In this document: piece by piece, positions 522 through 62,400 of the stretch
How positions within the stretch are numbered: position 1 is the stretch's first letter
How the letters are laid out: the number at the start of each line of letters is the position of its first letter
Origin: Norana najaformis
Taxonomy: Eukaryota; Annelida; Clitellata; Crassiclitellata; Hormogastridae
NCBI GenBank assembly: GCA_964023275.1
Contig: OZ029922.1
Location: 3,905,696-3,969,695 of the forward strand
Direction of reading: 5' to 3'
DNA length: 64,000 nt
Position numbers and translations under genes: made by a program
Notes under the pieces: generated by a model
Database searches by the model: none
The model's input: the letters and a program-made list of their open reading frames with translations, nothing else
Told to the model about the DNA's origin: nothing

Positions 522-3500
522 TCTTCATATATACGCTTAAGACATCTTGCCAATGTGGACGCTTCTAGAGACTTCTCAAAAATTTCTGCACTCAGTGGAC
601 CATCAGCTAAATATCAAAAATAAATACCCAAGGTTATCCAAGCAAAACAAAAAGCCAGGATTCCAAGCAAAACAAAAGTTCGGATTCAAAGCTAAAAGTT
701 CAGATAACAAAAAGTTATGGATCTAAGGAAAACTAAAACAAAACAAAACGAAGTTAGGAAGAGACAGATATTTTCAATCAGAATCAGATAAACATTAAGT
801 TCAAGTGTTCACTGTTTGCTGTTAGAATTCACTGCAGAATTTTCAGTATTTCAAGTGGAAAGTCAGGCAACAGACAAAGCACCTAACAGATAAAACTATA
901 ATTGTAATCACAAATTTATATAGTGTCACTTCAAGAGAAATGTCAGAAGTGTTCCTGACATGACAATACAAAACCACAACCCAGCACAACAGTCTTCAAC
1001 CGATTACAGAAAAGAGGCAAAGAGGTTGAGGAGTTCATAGGTTGAGGAGTTCATAGGTTGAGGAGTTCATAGGTTGAGGAGTTCATGTTGCAGGTTGCCA
1101 GGCAACTTATTCCGCAAAACAACGAATACATTACCAGAGCAAATATCTTAGCAGCAGTGATATATTCACCACGTTTCTCAAGACAATTGTTGGACTTACT
1201 CTGAACCCAAAGTGCTTTAATGAATGTCTGCAGCTTACTCCTCTATGCAAACCAAAAAGTCTTAATTTAACCTTCTACAGTTTAGAAAAAGTTCATCAGT
1301 AAATTCTGCATTTGGACAGCAGCTTGGTCTTGTTTGCATAATTTTCAAGGCAGCAGAGTTAAGCTACCAGTATATCAATCCACGTTAGTACCTTCTACAT
1401 TAGAGTAACATCATCTCCTACATTTGAGGAACAGTTACCTGCTACATTCAAGGAATGGTTTACCTCCTACATTCAAGGAATAGTTTACCTTCTACATTCA
1501 AGGAATAGTTTACCTTCTACACTCAAGGAATAGTTTATCTTCTACAACAGAGGAATAGTTTACCTTCTATATTCAACAAAAGTTCATTCTACATTTGAGG
1601 AACAGTTACCTGCTACATTCAAGGAATAGTTTACCTTCTACATTCAAGGAATAATTTATCTTCTACAATAGAGGAATAGTTTACTTTTTATATTCCAATA
1701 AGAGTTACCTTCTGCATTCAAGGAAAAGTTCACCCATATCAGAGGAACAGTTACCTTCTACATTTGAGGAACAGTTACCTTCTACATTTGAGGAACAGTT
1801 ACCTTCTACATTTGAGGAACAGTTACCTTCTACAGTAGAGGAACAGTTACCTTCTACACTTGAAGAAAAGTCATCTTGAATGCTGAGCATCATCTGTTTC
1901 TGACGAGACATGTAACCAGCGCGGTGCTCCTCATGACACAGAGCAACGGCCAACTGCCTCGAGAGATCCTGGTAGGTTGCGATAACTTCGGCACTCACCC
2001 AGGACTAGTTAAAAAAATAAAGCGTAATTTAACGTAACATAATGTAATTCCGTATTTATGCAACATCACCTCAAGAAGAAATCTTCAGATGCATTTTTTG
2101 ACAGACAACACAAAGCACAGCCTGAAAACAACTGCTTTGCACCATGGAATGATTTGTTGTCATCTCAGAATGACACTAAATAAATTAAGCAATAACACAA
2201 AACAAGTAAACATACAAAATAAATTTTAAACAGACACACTTTGTGAAATGTTGAGAAGCCGTCAAGCATTTGAAGTTGTGCGTTTTGTGAAGCAGCCTCA
2301 GCAAAGGGCGGCATACATGGCTATTGAGTGGCTGTTTGGCATTGTTACTGTTGCAGTGAAATTAAGCAATGCCCAGCTTGGGCATTGAATGCCTGACCAT
2401 TCATGGAATATCACGCTAAATGGTTACCCACTTGGCATTCCGTACTTTCAGGGTTGAAAGGTCAAAAGGTGTCATGTCACTGGACTGTTGTTCCCAAGTT
2501 TGCATCTCAGCCAGTTGATCCCTCAACCCCAAAATGCTCCCGAGAGTTTCTGTAGAGGCATGTAAACAAATCTATTACCGTTACCGGCTTCTGAGGCATT
2601 TACATTTAGCATGGTCCGTACACTGGGACCTTAAATTGCATGGCACCCATTCAAACAGGCAGCAGTGGTGAAGGATCTCACCCAATCAACTGAATGAAAA
2701 ATGATTAGGGTCGAGGCCATATGGTTGCTATAGAAAAACGTGTACATTTACATTTCACATTTACCTAACACAGTTTAGAATGAAATTGTCTGACTACCCG
2801 CAGAGCAAAGACAACGTTGAAGATGAAGTCTGTCGGCTGTGATCCATGTGACTGGCTGTCATCCTTCCTGACGTTCAGAACAGTGGGGAAACCGGTGAAA
2901 ATGACGTCGTTGATCTTGACCTCAAACTTCTGGCCACAGAAGTCTGGCTTTGTTGGTGCCAGAAGGTTTGCGAGCACTTTTTCTGAAAAACTGAACAAGT
3001 TATGCTCTTTAAATGTGTAGGCTACACGCCAGACATTAAGCTAGTTTTACACAACATAGAACAGCAGTCCTTCAAGGTAACCCCAAGAGGCAACTTCATT
3101 TTCTCACCCTTGGCACAAGAGAGCCAGTTGTCAGTCCTCTCCCTTGCCACCGTGATCATCATCATCACCACCACCATGGCCACCATCATCACCACGACAA
3201 CAGTGACCAAGACAATTACCATGACCATGACCACCACCATGACCATCATCATCAGAAATTTGTAAAACACAACATAATGTTATTAAATTCTCTGCATATA
3301 CGCTAGAAGAAGCAGCCAAGAACAACAGTCAAAGGGAGAGAAGTGAAGCTGACAGCATCAGTTGAACCCTTGTCCACTGCAATGTCCAATATTTCAGACT
3401 GCTACGGGCAGCACATTTACACAAGATCTACTGTTTATGTAAGATTTACTATGAATCATTTTACACAAGGTTGACACAGCTGTCTTCTTCAGCTGTCTTA

Positions 3501-5537
3501 CCCAGTCAGAATGCCGTCACTGGAGCCAAGACTGTAGTTATACCTAAAACAAAAGTTACCATTGCATGGTAAAAATAGAAAATCTTTGCTTTCACCTCTA
3601 CATCCTAGGTAAATGTGATAAGTTGTCAAGACATCTAACCCAAGTTGCCCATCTGTTACATCACTGAAAATGCCCTTCAACCAAATATCAGCAAGGACTA
3701 TCATTAGTTACTTAGCTATACAGACACTTAATATAGCACCTTTAAGCACCAAACTTATCTTACAGTATCATTGCAGAAGGTATCCATGGATTAAACAAGC
3801 TATCATATTAACCTAACCTTGCCCAGTGTAAATACAAAAGTAATGTAAATTTCCAAAATATCTTATTGCCACACAATAGCTGCATCCAGGTGACCAGCTT
3901 ATTAACTAGCTCTTAATCAAGTCATAATTCACAAAAGCCAGGTCTTCCTATTAAAACTCTGCCACTGCCTTTAGTCGGGAAGTGCCAGTCCCAAGCCTGG
4001 ATAAACGAGGAGAGTGGCGTCAACGGCCTCTGATGCCATAAGATGTTGTTAAACATTGGAACTACTACTACTTCTTCCTATTAGTTTTCATTGGCAAGGG
4101 GATCGAGCCAGATGGAACAGCAGAACGTTAACGTGAAAAACAATAATGAAGACAACAGTGTTGGAGGATATGCAAGAGTGGAATCAGAACAGGTCAGTTG
4201 GAAAAGGCCATTTTTCCTTTGGGTGTGAAATACTTGAGGAGAGAGTGCAAGAGAAGGACAGAAGTGAAAATTGATGTAACCACCCAATGGTAATAAAAAT
4301 TCACTTAAATACAAAACAAGTTACCAATTCAAGTAAAAAATTCACCGAAACGTTAAGTCCATCAGAGTTAAAAAGATGTTCCCTTGAAACTTCTACAACA
4401 GAGCAGTACACGCTTCGATACAAGATCACTTATGCAGTTGACGAAAGCAGACTTACTTTGGAACGGTGTATGTAACAATCAAAGAGTTCTTCATAGCAAA
4501 TCGATTCTGGGCATAATCTACAAACGGGAAATGGCAGCAAAGTCATAACTTAACTCATAAATAGAAGCCAGTGAATAAGAAGAAAACTACAGTTTCAAAT
4601 CGTAAATGCATTACATAATACATTTACTGTACTATATCTGTACTACATCTGTAAATGTAATGTGATATATATGTTTTTCCATAGCAACCACATGTCCTTG
4701 ACCCTGCTCATTTTTCAATGAATTAATCAGGTGAGATCCTTCACCACCACTGCCCAACTGAATGGGCACTATGCCCATTAAGGTTCCCATGTATGGACTG
4801 TGCTAACCCAAGATTCAAATCTCTGAAATAAGCCACGACCAGGAAGCAAACTGGCTGTACCTATATGGTGCAAATCAAACGAGTACAATTAAGTTACAAG
4901 TTTGGTTACAAACTAAATTCAAATGTAAGAGTATGTATGTATGTAAGTATGCATGGATTATTTGTGTTAGGCCTGTCATCGAGTGCCAGGAGGCCCAGGT
5001 ACCTGCCCAAAGGGTTGCATCCTGGTTGTAATGCATATACAGTAACCTGGCCAAAGAAGCATGATTATCTTAAACAAATTGCTGTACCAGTCACAGGCTC
5101 CCAGATTTTCTGTTGCATGTGAAGCCATGGAGTGGGAGCAATCGGGTTGCAGGCAACAGTTACTAATCAGCACCTGTTCGTTCTGCTCAGTCTCGTATGT
5201 CGTGTCAGTCTCAGCTCAAGACTGACCTTTACCAGCTGGGTTATCAATCATAGGCTGTCTCTGTCTCTGTAGCCTGCTTTCTGTGTATTAACCTAATTAG
5301 GGCTTAGTTTAGGTGCACCAACGGTTGATGCCTTGTCCTTTTACTCTGGTGCTACAGAAGTTGCTAAGTAATAACAATAATAACAATAATCAAAATAAAT
5401 TCTAAAAACAATTTACCCGGTTTGTCCAGTTCGGCAGGTAATGGTAACTCGTATGGATATCGGAACAACAGCTTTTCTCCTCCTGCACTGTATGTTACTA
5501 AGAACAATCCAATTGGGTCCGATTCCGACTTCGTCAT
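522..5537 (-). CDS. NPRL3: NPRL3, GATOR1 complex subunit (5' part of gene, runs off the left edge)
   Basis: Known role: NPRL3 with NPRL2 and DEPDC5 forms GATOR1, the GTPase-activating complex for RagA/B that restrains TORC1 at the lysosome when amino acids are scarce. Seen: exons on the minus strand at 5537-5417 (start codon 5537-5535; SESDPIGLFLVTYSAGGEKL followed by LFRYPYE), 3604 or 3543 down to 3502, 2990-2798 (FCGQKFEVKINDV and FNVVFALR, the longin-like N-terminal domain), 2004-1851 (YQDLSRQLAVALCHEE) and 606-522 (LARCLKRIYE). Phases join cleanly from exon 2 to exon 5 (G|GT, 0, G|CT), and each exon matches the animal NPRL3 N-terminus in order. Exon 1 ends in phase 1. Exon 2 starting at 3543 would need phase 2, so either the acceptor at 3605 is used or a small exon is missing. 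The remaining exons (winged-helix and C-terminal parts) lie beyond base 1. The first methionine that aligns with the family was chosen; the frame is open upstream. Confidence 0.9.
1023..1086. repeat. 16-bp direct repeat, four tandem copies
   Basis: Four near-identical copies of AGGTTGAGGAGTTCAT lie head to tail inside NPRL3 intron 4. No coding meaning is seen. Confidence 0.9.
1387..1866 (-). repeat. 24/25-bp minisatellite spanning an NPRL3 exon end and its 5' splice site
   Basis: About 20 units of GAGGAACAGTTACCTTCTAC plus four bases, best conserved at 1741-1866 (24-bp period) and degenerate to the left (about 25 bp). Read on the minus strand, each good unit contains GAAG|GTAACT, a consensus donor, at 1851, 1827, 1803, 1779 and 1755. 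The first donor joins NPRL3 exon 4 to exon 5 in frame. The units stay open in the exon 4 frame down to 1705 and encode the octapeptide NCSS(x)VEG. The array probably arose by duplication of the exon/intron border. Confidence 0.9.
2611..2745 (+). mobile_element. Short dispersed repeat (GGTCCGTACAC family), plus strand
   Basis: Starts CATGGTCCGTACACTGGGAC and ends GGTTGCTATAGAAAAA. It contains two small hairpins (GTGAAGGATCTCAC; TGAATGAAAAATGA). Related copies are at 4672-4805 (minus), 6066-6122 (minus, partial) and 55881-55997 (plus). About 130 bp with no coding capacity, so MITE- or SINE-like; class not established. Confidence 0.7.
3150..3260. repeat. ATC/ACC imperfect microsatellite
   Basis: A run of ATC, ACC and ATG triplets in NPRL3 intron 2. 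It gives long open frames on both strands with His/Asp/Gly- or Thr/Met-rich translations; these are by-products of the triplet repeat and not genes. Confidence 0.85.
3951..4077 (+). mobile_element. SINE-like repeat with (ACT)n tail, plus strand
   Basis: Contains CCCAAGCCTGGATAAA, then TGATGCCATAAGATG, and ends AACATTGGAACTACTACTAC. Closely similar copies are at 11208-11328 (plus), 34290-34395 (minus) and 38460-38575 (minus). No coding capacity. Confidence 0.7.
4672..4805 (-). mobile_element. GGTCCGTACAC-family repeat, minus strand
   Basis: Inverted relative to the copy at 2611; the reverse complement has CTCACC, CATTGAAAAATGAGCAGGG and GGTTGCTATGGAAAAA in the same order. It lies in NPRL3 intron 1. 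Confidence 0.7.
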
Positions 5538-6824: not shown

Positions 6825-9291
<2,467 letters not shown>

Positions 9292-35689: not shown

Positions 35690-36510
35690 ATCTTTAGTGT
35701 TAATAACTGTAAAATTATCTGCAAATTTTATTGGGAAGACTGTTCCCGATAGAGAAGCGGAGGAGAAGATACGACGACATGCACTTCAAAACGGAAGTAT
35801 ATATCACTAAACTTATATAGCGCCTTTTAAGTAACTCACAAAGGCGCCACAGCAAGGATAGGGCTTAGCTGCCTAAATGGACGTCGAAACGTTAATACGG
35901 TAACACAAGTGAAAGATAAACAAAGACGAAGACCAGTCCATAAATAATAGGTAACATAAATAAAGACAGAGCACGACTTCTACTAAACACGAGACAAGCA
36001 ACATTTGACAAAAGACTGATAAGAATGGAGGTTTTATGATGATGATGATGATGATGTATGATGGTGGTGATGATGATGTATGATGATGATGACGAAGATG
36101 ATGACGATGATGATGATGTTTTGAAGTGCATATCGGATCTTTTCCTCCGCTTTTCTATCGGGAACAGTCTTCCCATTAAAATTCGTAGGTCATTTTACAG
36201 CTGATGATGATGATGATGATGACGACGATGTTGTTGTTGATGATGATGATAATGAATGATGATGATGTTTCGAAGTGCATGTCGGATCTTTTCCTCCGCT
36301 TTTCTATCGGGAACAGTCCTCCCATTAAAGTTAGCAGCTAATTTTACAGTTGCTGATGATGATGATGACGATGATGATGACGACGACGATGATGTTGTTG
36401 ATGTTGTTGTTGATGTGGTGGATGATGATGATGATGACTGATGATGATGATGATGACGACGATGTTATTGTTGTTGATGTGGATGATGATGATGATGATG
36501 ATACAGGCTA
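35690..36510. repeat. Composite GAT-triplet array with three copies of an ~85-bp unit
   Basis: Long (GAT/GAC)n runs at 36035-36118, 36202-36264 and 36350-36510 separate two direct copies (about 36118-36205 and 36265-36352) of a unit with CCTCCGCTTTTCTATCGGGA followed by ACAGTC. A third, inverted copy lies at about 35700-35790. Asp-rich open frames here come from the triplet repeat. Confidence 0.85.
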
Positions 36511-59463: not shown

Positions 59464-62400
59464 TTAGTTCAGGGAGCCACGACAACCAACAGCATTACAA
59501 AGACAGCGAATCTTGTCTTCTTCCAGCGGAAACTTGTAGTCGTACGTAATTTCTTCTCGTACGCCGATGTCTCGTTTAGAATAAATTACGATCTTTTTCT
59601 GAGACTCGACGGTAACGATTTTGGCACAACAGTTTGGCTGCAGGAAAACAAAACAGCAATTTGATCATGAAAACTTTTGAATAAATTGATTAGATTGGCA
59701 GCAGAGAATAAAAGAAGACGTAGAATAATTGTAGGTCTGATCGTAAGCAAAAAACAAACAAATAATTACAAATGACAATGAAAGGATGAAAAGCGTTCCC
59801 TCCCTGTGAAAAGCAAAGACAAGTCAAGAATGTTTATAGTGCTCAATTTTTTTTAATTTAGAAAATTTATAAATATTAAAAAAAAACTAAGCAACATCCA
59901 AAAATTTACAAAATTTAGACAAACTTCACCGATGAAGCAGACATGTGCCTGTGAATTTTCCTTACATAAACTAATAACACAGATATGGTCTCTGAAATCC
60001 GTGTCAACCACAGGAGAGTTTCCTCAGCGCTTCAACTCAAGGTTGCGGCCACTTCCAACACTCCGGATCGCTCAATCATGAATTTAAAAAGTAACAGCTG
60101 GAACTACAATTATTTGGCAAGTTTACAAACAGTGTTTTTGACAGTGAGTTCTTAGAAGGGCATTTGGGATTTTCAGCAAACACTTTTAACATTTTTACGA
60201 CTATGTTATATCTTATATTATACGAATATAAAAAACATTGTTCCAATAGCAACGTTATACACACACACGTCACGCATATACTGGGGATGGTAACCAGCTG
60301 GTTAAAGCTTGGCTCGTAATATGGGGAGTACAGGTTTGAGCCGCCCCTGAGTCAGATACTGTGTAGGCACTGTAAGGGAGCAAGTCTTTCATTCAAAATT
60401 GCTCAGTGACATCAACTGATGCTTAGTCATACGATAGTGGTGCTTAATAAGTGCAGCAATAATAATAATAAGTAAGTAAGTAGCCTTTTACTCGTGTAAG
60501 ACAAATGCTCATATTTTGCAAAATACAAACATATGAGTGATACATCCACACATACAAAACAACGAATATAGCAGATAAGGTTTCTTACAGTTACCAAAAT
60601 CAGCAAACTGTAATAAGTAAAGTAAAGAACTCACACTGCAACAGTGATTGATGAACCTGGCCAGATTTCCATACTTGGTTGCATCAACGATTGCATCTCC
60701 ATCAACCCTGAACAGGTAGCTGCTGCCAATGCCCAGCGCTTCGTAGCGTTTCTCTCGCAGGTCAGCGACAGACTGTCGGACGACCTGACCCACATATTCG
60801 ATGACCATCTCACCTTCTTGGATGGGTTCCAACGCAAACAAACCCCAGTCATGTATATTGCTTTTGGCAAACTTCAGCTGCTTCTTTCGGAACTGTTTGA
60901 AAACAAAACAAGCGAAACACTTACTGCCTCGATCTGTCATTTAATTCCTCAATCAGTCATTTAATGCCTTGATCTTTCATTTAATGCCTCGATCGGTCAT
61001 TTAATGCCTTGATCTGACATTTAATGCCCCAATCTGTCATTAGCCTCGATGTGTACGTGCCAGTCATTTTCTTCGCCTTCTGATTTTCCCACTGACTGGG
61101 TTGATGGTTCAAGGAAAAAACTTTTCTCACTGCTAAAACAAGTTTCAACCCCCCACTGTCAAGCAGCATTATGCACCGTGATAAACAAACATGTCTAGTA
61201 TTAGCTGACAAGCATGCCCACTGCTAGACAATTGCAGTTTCCCAAGATTTGAACAAACGTTGGTGGTAATAATTTTACAATATGCCTAAATGTTCTGCAT
61301 TCAGTACTGGCAAGAATTCATAACTAAAACTGAACAGAGCTGTGAAAAGACAAGGAGAAGGTAAGTTGCATCAAGACAGCCGTGCCAAGTTTTAACACAC
61401 CACAGAGCAACACTTAATTCATATTGGTTCATTTAACTTATAAACACTTATTGCTTTAATGTACCCGTATGCAGAGTAATGGTGGTGACACTTCGGTCTT
61501 TTTCACCTATTCCTACTAAGAGTGCTTCTAAATAATGGTAATTTCAACATATGGCGAGAAGTGACACTCTGTAGCAGTGACACTTTCATCTTTTTCTGGA
61601 AGACTAAACCAGCAAGCAAACATGAAAGGCATTTCTACACATTACATCAGACAAATTCTGTGTCTTCTTGCACAGTGTATCCCTGAAAACTCTATAACAG
61701 CCAAACAGATTAAACAGAATGAATTCCTGGAAGGCAAATGGCAATATATACATAATTCAGAATTTTAACCTATCAGGTTTACTGTCATTTTCTGAAAAGA
61801 ATCACTCAGTCATAACTCAGCTTGTAAACCATTTAGTGTAGAAGTGCCCAGGCAAAACCACTCCTTGCACCGCTTGAGTGTAATTTAAGGTGTGCAAATT
61901 AAGCACAAACTGTTTAACATAGAAACTAAATTTCAGTAGCCTGTATTAGATTACATTCATAAATCTACAGAAATACGTTACATCAGAATTTATGTTACAG
62001 TGGCATCAGTAACAAGGAGTTTGAAAGCTGGAAAATGGAATTAAGTTTCAACAGTCAGTTCGTGTCAGTGAGGTTCTATGAAAGATCAAATCAAATCAAA
62101 CTGGATCCTCTGTTCAACAGGAAGTCAATGCAGCATTTGGGTGATGTGTCTCAGTGGAAAAACGACATGCCATCAGTCATTTCATCACCTCATCAAAGCT
62201 TCTTAAAACAGACGCCACATACAAACCTTGAGCTGGTTGAACTTGAGAAGATCTCCAACGTCCTCTCCCAAAGATCCAAGAACGCTCTGCCATCTCCTGC
62301 TCTCGGACCGAGCCTCACGCGACTGTTGAACCTTCTTCTTTGTCTGACTGGCCGGGTCTAACTCAAACGCTTGCTCGCTTTCCTGCGACTGATTGACACC

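Follow-up and report, generated by a model that had tools for sequence, protein, structure and literature searches.

Arrays of repeated putative 5′ splice sites at exon ends in NPRL3 and other genes of the annelid Norana najaformis

How one of several identical 5′ splice sites is chosen has long been asked, mostly with artificial minigenes; in classical two-donor minigenes, the intron-proximal of two identical donors is preferred. The human IFI6 gene (6-16, G1P3) contains a minisatellite with a 12-bp unit and consensus donors. The IFI6 minisatellite is the subject of a 1995 paper by Turri, Cuin and Porter (Nucleic Acids Res 23:1854). Two downstream repeat units of this array serve as donors, giving three mRNAs, according to a paper that cites the original work (PMC4526556, citing Turri et al. 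1995). Competition between adjacent donors is described for DOK7 intron 4, where two unequal donors are under SRSF1 control and the intron-proximal one is preferred (PMC5585400). Tandem duplication across splice-site-like sequence is the basis of the AGGT model of intron gain, exemplified by potato RdRp (PMC4974935).

Our analysis of a 64-kb window (64,000 nucleotides of contig OZ029922.1) of the N. najaformis genome revealed that exon 4 of NPRL3 leads directly into a 20-unit minisatellite. Its tandem units carry the 5′ splice-site consensus in the sense of the transcript, and it starts where a coding exon ends (1851) and faces one common acceptor (606); among the 15 downstream donors with GT, frame is kept by five (1827 to 1734), and the other ten would lead to a premature stop codon (PTC). 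With its putative donors, the array is of the same kind as the human IFI6 minisatellite. Both consist of tandem units each with a donor at an exon end; they differ in that the NPRL3 units are of 24 or 25 bp, lack G at +5, and lose the frame after six units, in another gene and another animal, and in that this genome holds ten further homology-supported cases. In comparison with DOK7, adjacent donors would again compete for one acceptor, but here they are many and near-identical, and the exon-side one must be productive. Duplication across splice-site-like sequence is likewise shared with intron gain, whereas NPRL3 multiplies an existing exon-intron junction and no new intron is inferred. A literature search of titles and the beginnings of abstracts, with few subscription papers, found no description of an NPRL3 donor array or of a genome-wide class of exon-anchored donor arrays.

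The 5′ part of NPRL3 lies on the minus strand of the window, and the gene has further exons in the adjoining 10 kb past the start of the window. The first coding exon (5448..5531) and exon 3 (2798..2989) are given as extents of homology, not exact ends; exon 4 to its first donor (1851..2004) is placed by homology and by the acceptor ...aactag before 2004. Intron 4 (607..1850) measures 1244 nt if this first donor is used, and exon 5 (522..606), with its acceptor AG at 608-607 and the donor AGA/GTAAGT, has its frame fixed by homology on either side. The join of 1851 to 606 matches two solved NPRL3 sequences of the GATOR1 complex (E = 5.7e-7 and 6.1e-7), which we take to be human; the alignment is interrupted by a gap of one residue at the join and by another of two residues in exon 5. 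Pfam NPR3 scores of 25.5 bits for exon 3 and 26.7 bits for the exon 4-5 join both lie just under the curated cut-off of 27.5, and exon-by-exon matches reach residue 562 of human NPRL3. A search for an NPRL3 retrocopy with joined exons, allowing E values up to 1, returned no retrocopy and three matches, each an exon of the gene itself (3, 4, and 5). Since the 1851 join aligns to the solved NPRL3 sequences with a gap of a single residue, 1851 is most likely the ancestral and main donor.

Tandem Repeats Finder called the array at 1390-1873 (period 24, 20.0 copies) and 1418-1858 (period 25), with a higher-order call at 1413-1858 (period 121, score 479); together with unit parsing this places it at 1392..1874 on the minus strand. 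The exon-end unit of 24 bp is followed by seven 24-bp units, nine 25-bp units, and one each of 21, 22, and 23 bp. The 24-bp type (GTAACTGTTCCTCAAATGTAGAAG) lies near the exon and recurs with one change in units ending at 1586 and 1415, and the 25-bp type (GTAAACTATTCCTTGAATGTAGAAG) occupies the intron side. The most upstream unit is coding: exon 4 ends within it, and the last 24 nt of the exon (1874-1851) share 19 of 24 positions with the 24-bp unit, as counted by hand. Expressed as last exon bases, the unit ends are 1851, 1827, 1803, 1779, 1755, 1734, 1709, 1685, 1660, 1635, 1610, 1586, 1564, 1539, 1514, 1489, 1464, 1439, 1415, and 1392, and most units carry the exon-4 5′ splice site, the sequence after the unit end being GT in 16 of 20, AT in three, and GA in one. 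A DNA search of the genome with 134 bases of the array yielded five matches, all within the NPRL3 array. A phage trimerisation domain in the exon-4 frame (Pfam 8.2e-05, under its cut-off) was judged a repeat artefact. On the opposite strand, part of the array (1655-1879, +) is open for 74 codons, probably a by-product of the 24-bp units. Intron 4 also contains four copies of a perfect 16-bp repeat, AGGTTGAGGAGTTCAT (1023-1086), and a further repeat of period 24 (640-697).

All putative donors are on the minus strand. Donor 1, AAG/GTAACT (1845..1853, last exon base 1851), the probable main and ancestral one, is followed by donors 2 (1821..1829, last exon base 1827), 3 (1797..1805; 1803), 4 (1773..1781; 1779), and 5 (1749..1757; 1755). 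The earlier note had described a minisatellite of AAG/GTAACT donors at these five positions, with offsets divisible by 3 and open joins to 606 that add 0, 8, 16, 24, or 32 residues; the sites, the offsets, and the conceptual joins are all as it said. It overlooked a sixth in-frame open donor, TGG/GTGAAC (1728..1736, last exon base 1734), which would add 39 residues and is weaker by matrix. Its view of the repeat as a series of in-frame donors also holds for the exon-side units, where isoforms longer by multiples of eight residues are possible. Of 16 conceptual joins of GT donors to 606, six are open and ten give a PTC. These ten (1386..1711; last exon bases 1709, 1685, 1635, 1610, 1564, 1514, 1489, 1464, 1439, and 1392) fail through the in-frame TAA that closes the exon-4 reading frame (1705..1707) or through a frame shift. 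They include another AAG/GTAACT at 1709, out of frame, and CAG/GTAACT at 1610 and 1439, both frame-breaking.

The proximal AAG/GTAACT donors lack the usual G at +5, and their predicted pairing with U1 is -6.5 kcal/mol versus -11.6 kcal/mol for CAGGTAAGT; the best U1 pairing of the array, -8.0 kcal/mol, belongs to the two CAG/GTAACT sites. Scored with a donor matrix, 13 sites in the array reach 6 or more, and it contains eight donor-like 9-mers scoring at least as high as AAGGTAACT, compared with at most four in any other 480-nt stretch of the window on both strands.

We consider it probable that the array arose by duplication of the junction, has come to lie within the intron, and persists with 1851 still the main donor, in-frame spares behind it, and PTC decoys beyond these. 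A tandem duplication across the exon-4/intron-4 junction, taking in exon tail and intron head, would have started the process, and slippage or unequal exchange could then have extended the array into the intron. The exon-side donor would have been left in front, still the main one and giving a protein of ancestral length; the next five would be in-frame spares, with possible minor isoforms carrying 8, 16, 24, 32, or 39 extra residues, and the remaining ten decoys, whose use would lead to a PTC and probably to nonsense-mediated decay. The array would persist because the first donor wins often enough, and the other exon-anchored donor arrays of the genome would have the same origin. The duplication origin is suggested by the 19/24 match of the exon tail and by the like anatomy found at ten other exons recognized by homology.

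These exons came from a search of the genome (608 Mb, 17 contigs) for donor words in tandem. The AGGTAAGT x3 pattern gave 534 hits against 1198 for its backward control, CAGGTAAGT x3 gave 60 against 178, and CAGGTGAGT x3 gave 26 against 13; backward controls were compared by hits and, for one pattern, by loci (GTGAGT, 10 loci against 4). Because the controls outnumber the hits for AGGTAAGT and CAGGTAAGT, tandem arrays are not enriched in donor words, with the mild exception of GTGAGT. The survey counts cover these three patterns, and the NPRL3 array, having a different donor core, falls outside all three sets. The 60 CAGGTAAGT hits represent 18 loci and the 26 CAGGTGAGT hits ten loci, all of which were fetched, and the AGGTAAGT sample comprises 29 distinct arrays among the matches listed, tetranucleotide-like ones having been left out by eye; with four loci common to two lists, 53 arrays were fetched in total. 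In ten of the 53, an exon with recognizable homology ends precisely at the point where the first unit begins, and the statement in the earlier note that donor arrays of this kind are rare is not supported. The anchored share is 3/18 for CAGGTAAGT and 5/10 for CAGGTGAGT, both complete sets, and 3/29 in the hand-picked AGGTAAGT set.

Homology spans the first-donor join in eight of the ten: a tektin (L021; 7.5e-15), a MAGI-type PDZ protein (L029; about 1e-22 to MAGI chains), an R3H/SUZ protein (L023; SUZ, 9.4e-13), an EGF protein (L054; cEGF, 4e-12, with stretch 21-44 spanning the join), a WD40 protein that is presumably SPAG16-like (L066; 4.4e-12, 33-bp unit), transaldolase (L067; 5.4e-14), a P4-ATPase (L072; 2.4e-17, 27-bp unit), and a FYVE protein that we take to be PIKfyve (L073; 1.3e-13). 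For NPL4 (L059, 42-bp unit) and an ankyrin protein (L069), homology reaches the last exon residue. The exon parts of the WD40 and R3H/SUZ genes by themselves had no Pfam match, and these two cases rest on the joined sequence and the neighboring exons. In seven of the ten arrays, the 3′ part of the unit copies the exon tail behind the intron head over 10 to 35 nt at 80% identity or more (tektin 10 nt; R3H/SUZ 11; EGF, P4-ATPase, and FYVE 12 each; WD40 25; MAGI-type 35), which therefore suggests tandem duplication across the exon-intron junction; the shared tails of NPL4 (5 nt), transaldolase (5 nt), and ankyrin (7 nt) prove nothing.

Two of these introns have features of their own. The 42-bp units of NPL4 (GTAAGT...ACAG) fill nearly all of an intron of about 158 nt, its acceptor chosen by eye, and each resembles a tiny intron with donor and acceptor; if that acceptor is right, this array comes closest here to intron gain by tandem duplication. 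The R3H/SUZ intron contains, deeper in, a second donor array with 22-bp units, AAAGAGGTAAGTGCACCAGCTT (1799-1909 of the reverse complement of L023).

Up to eleven equally scoring donors lie within the 500 bases that follow the exon-side donor. The downstream donor-like sites with matrix scores of 6 or more, a few of them beyond the array, number 76 in the ten arrays. With acceptors picked either by eye or by script, 72 of them would lead to a PTC; two (R3H/SUZ, +15; ankyrin, +54) are open and keep the frame, and a further two (tektin, +32; FYVE, +28) are open out of frame for as far as the tested stretch goes. For R3H/SUZ, 7 of the 11 downstream donors were joined in the frame test and 4 lie beyond an in-frame stop. 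With 72 of 76 sites predicted to give a PTC, in conserved genes, use of the exon-side donor must be frequent enough even though many equal rivals lie close by. We propose, tentatively and with a little less than even confidence, that exon-anchored donor minisatellites form a standing class in this genome, born by junction duplication and subject to a strong rule that the first donor wins, contrary to the intron-proximal preference in classical two-donor minigenes. NPRL3 would be a rare member of the class, where the rule could relax harmlessly and leakage could be exposed as octapeptide isoforms.

Recurrence of exon-anchored donor arrays in one genome is a more interesting result than the NPRL3 array. 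About eleven such natural constructs occur in conserved genes of this genome, each with between three and twelve near-identical donors; only the first donor, or mainly the first, would lead to a working protein. If the first donor nearly always wins, repeats that span a junction are harmless and free to grow; if it does not, the arrays generate isoforms and cause a hidden loss of transcripts, and repeats of this class deserve to be looked for at exon ends in other genomes, the human one included.

A different reading of the NPRL3 array is that its in-frame donors are used appreciably, giving isoforms with up to four octapeptides (NCSS.VEG) or 39 extra residues in a mix that shifts with copy number. 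There are six open in-frame donors, five with an identical 9-mer; the insertion point coincides with the gap in the alignment to solved NPRL3, and in human IFI6 two downstream units do contribute to three mRNAs (PMC4526556). The first five unit intervals, moreover, are all multiples of 3, though only 8 of the 19 intervals are so overall (p = 0.0048 under random order, hand calculation), a pattern that selection on frame could give. However, three of the units in these five intervals are identical and so not independent, a single series of duplications being their probable source. Three of the ten other arrays (NPL4, P4-ATPase, and WD40) have a unit length divisible by 3, the share that chance predicts, and their downstream donors give a PTC all the same, so the frame-keeping in NPRL3 may be chance. 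Although NPRL3 is the only one of the eleven arrays with more than one open in-frame downstream donor, about one such array is expected by chance on a rough estimate, because a frame-keeping unit length and an open frame each have a likelihood of one in three.

Column conservation also speaks against appreciable use of the repeat donors. Mean identity over 19 units is 16.6/19 for the nine donor columns versus 15.9/19 for the rest, and among the 24 circular windows the nine-column donor window comes eighth (the six-column core fourth); the donor columns hardly exceed the remainder of the unit in conservation, and selection on them is unsupported in the NPRL3 array. We judge appreciable use of the in-frame donors rather unlikely. 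In the MAGI-type array, GT opens all eight units and the donor window has the top rank of 38. This might point to constraint, although the first three units had been chosen by their donor pattern; this rank and those of tektin (4 of 16) and L034 (5 of 19) are inflated by the pattern used to find the arrays.

Still less probable, in our estimation, is that the intron-side donors, above all CAG/GTAACT at 1610 and 1439, lead a share of transcripts into nonsense-mediated decay and thereby adjust the dose of NPRL3. Both sites would give a PTC and both outdo the proximal donors in predicted U1 pairing, and the minigene preference for the intron-proximal of two identical donors would work in the same direction; but 4 of the 20 units are without GT, the donor columns are not specially kept, and regulation has no sign in the sequence analyzed. 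That the donors act jointly as U1 landing sites, for recruitment or for protection from early termination, and not as alternatives is highly improbable: this is the densest donor cluster of the window and sits at a donor without G at +5, but the leading donors of other arrays in the genome are at full strength and need no help, and no RNA structure signal accompanies the array. Sequestration of the donors by RNA structure was rejected, as the array folds no better than shuffled sequences (z 1.33; of 100 shuffles, 89 equal or better its folding). Junction duplication, with the exon-side donor still in command, is the reading we retain for NPRL3.

The 43 fetched arrays not counted as anchored were mostly judged by eye, so some anchored cases may be missed among them. 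Five (L034, L050, L068, L070, and L074) have an open exon-like end and look similar to the anchored arrays; searches with the ends of L034, L050, L070, and L074 found no homology. L050 may be HECTD4-like. In L040, L055, and L060 the exon seems, by eye, to lie on the other strand, and the peptides before L019, L024, L032, L037, L043, L057, and L065 had no credible Pfam match. L043 extends for about 1 kb (about 1500-2547) in units of about 13 bp, with 35 AGGTAAGT words and, before it, the open frame that is among those lacking a match. The 19-bp units of L034 (1498-1642; TTTTCACTTCAG/GTAAGTG) each combine a pyrimidine run with an AG and a donor, so that the array resembles a series of recursive splice sites.

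Known RNA families were absent from the 64-kb window at gathering thresholds. Elsewhere in the window, a frame at 9151-9291 (+) matches ribosomal protein L27A (Pfam 4.2e-14) and one at 60509-60940 (-) matches the SET domain (Pfam 2e-13), indicating that the window holds several conserved genes. Trinucleotide ATG/TGA tracts occur at 36036-36502, partly within a 149-bp repeated block present in 2.2 copies.
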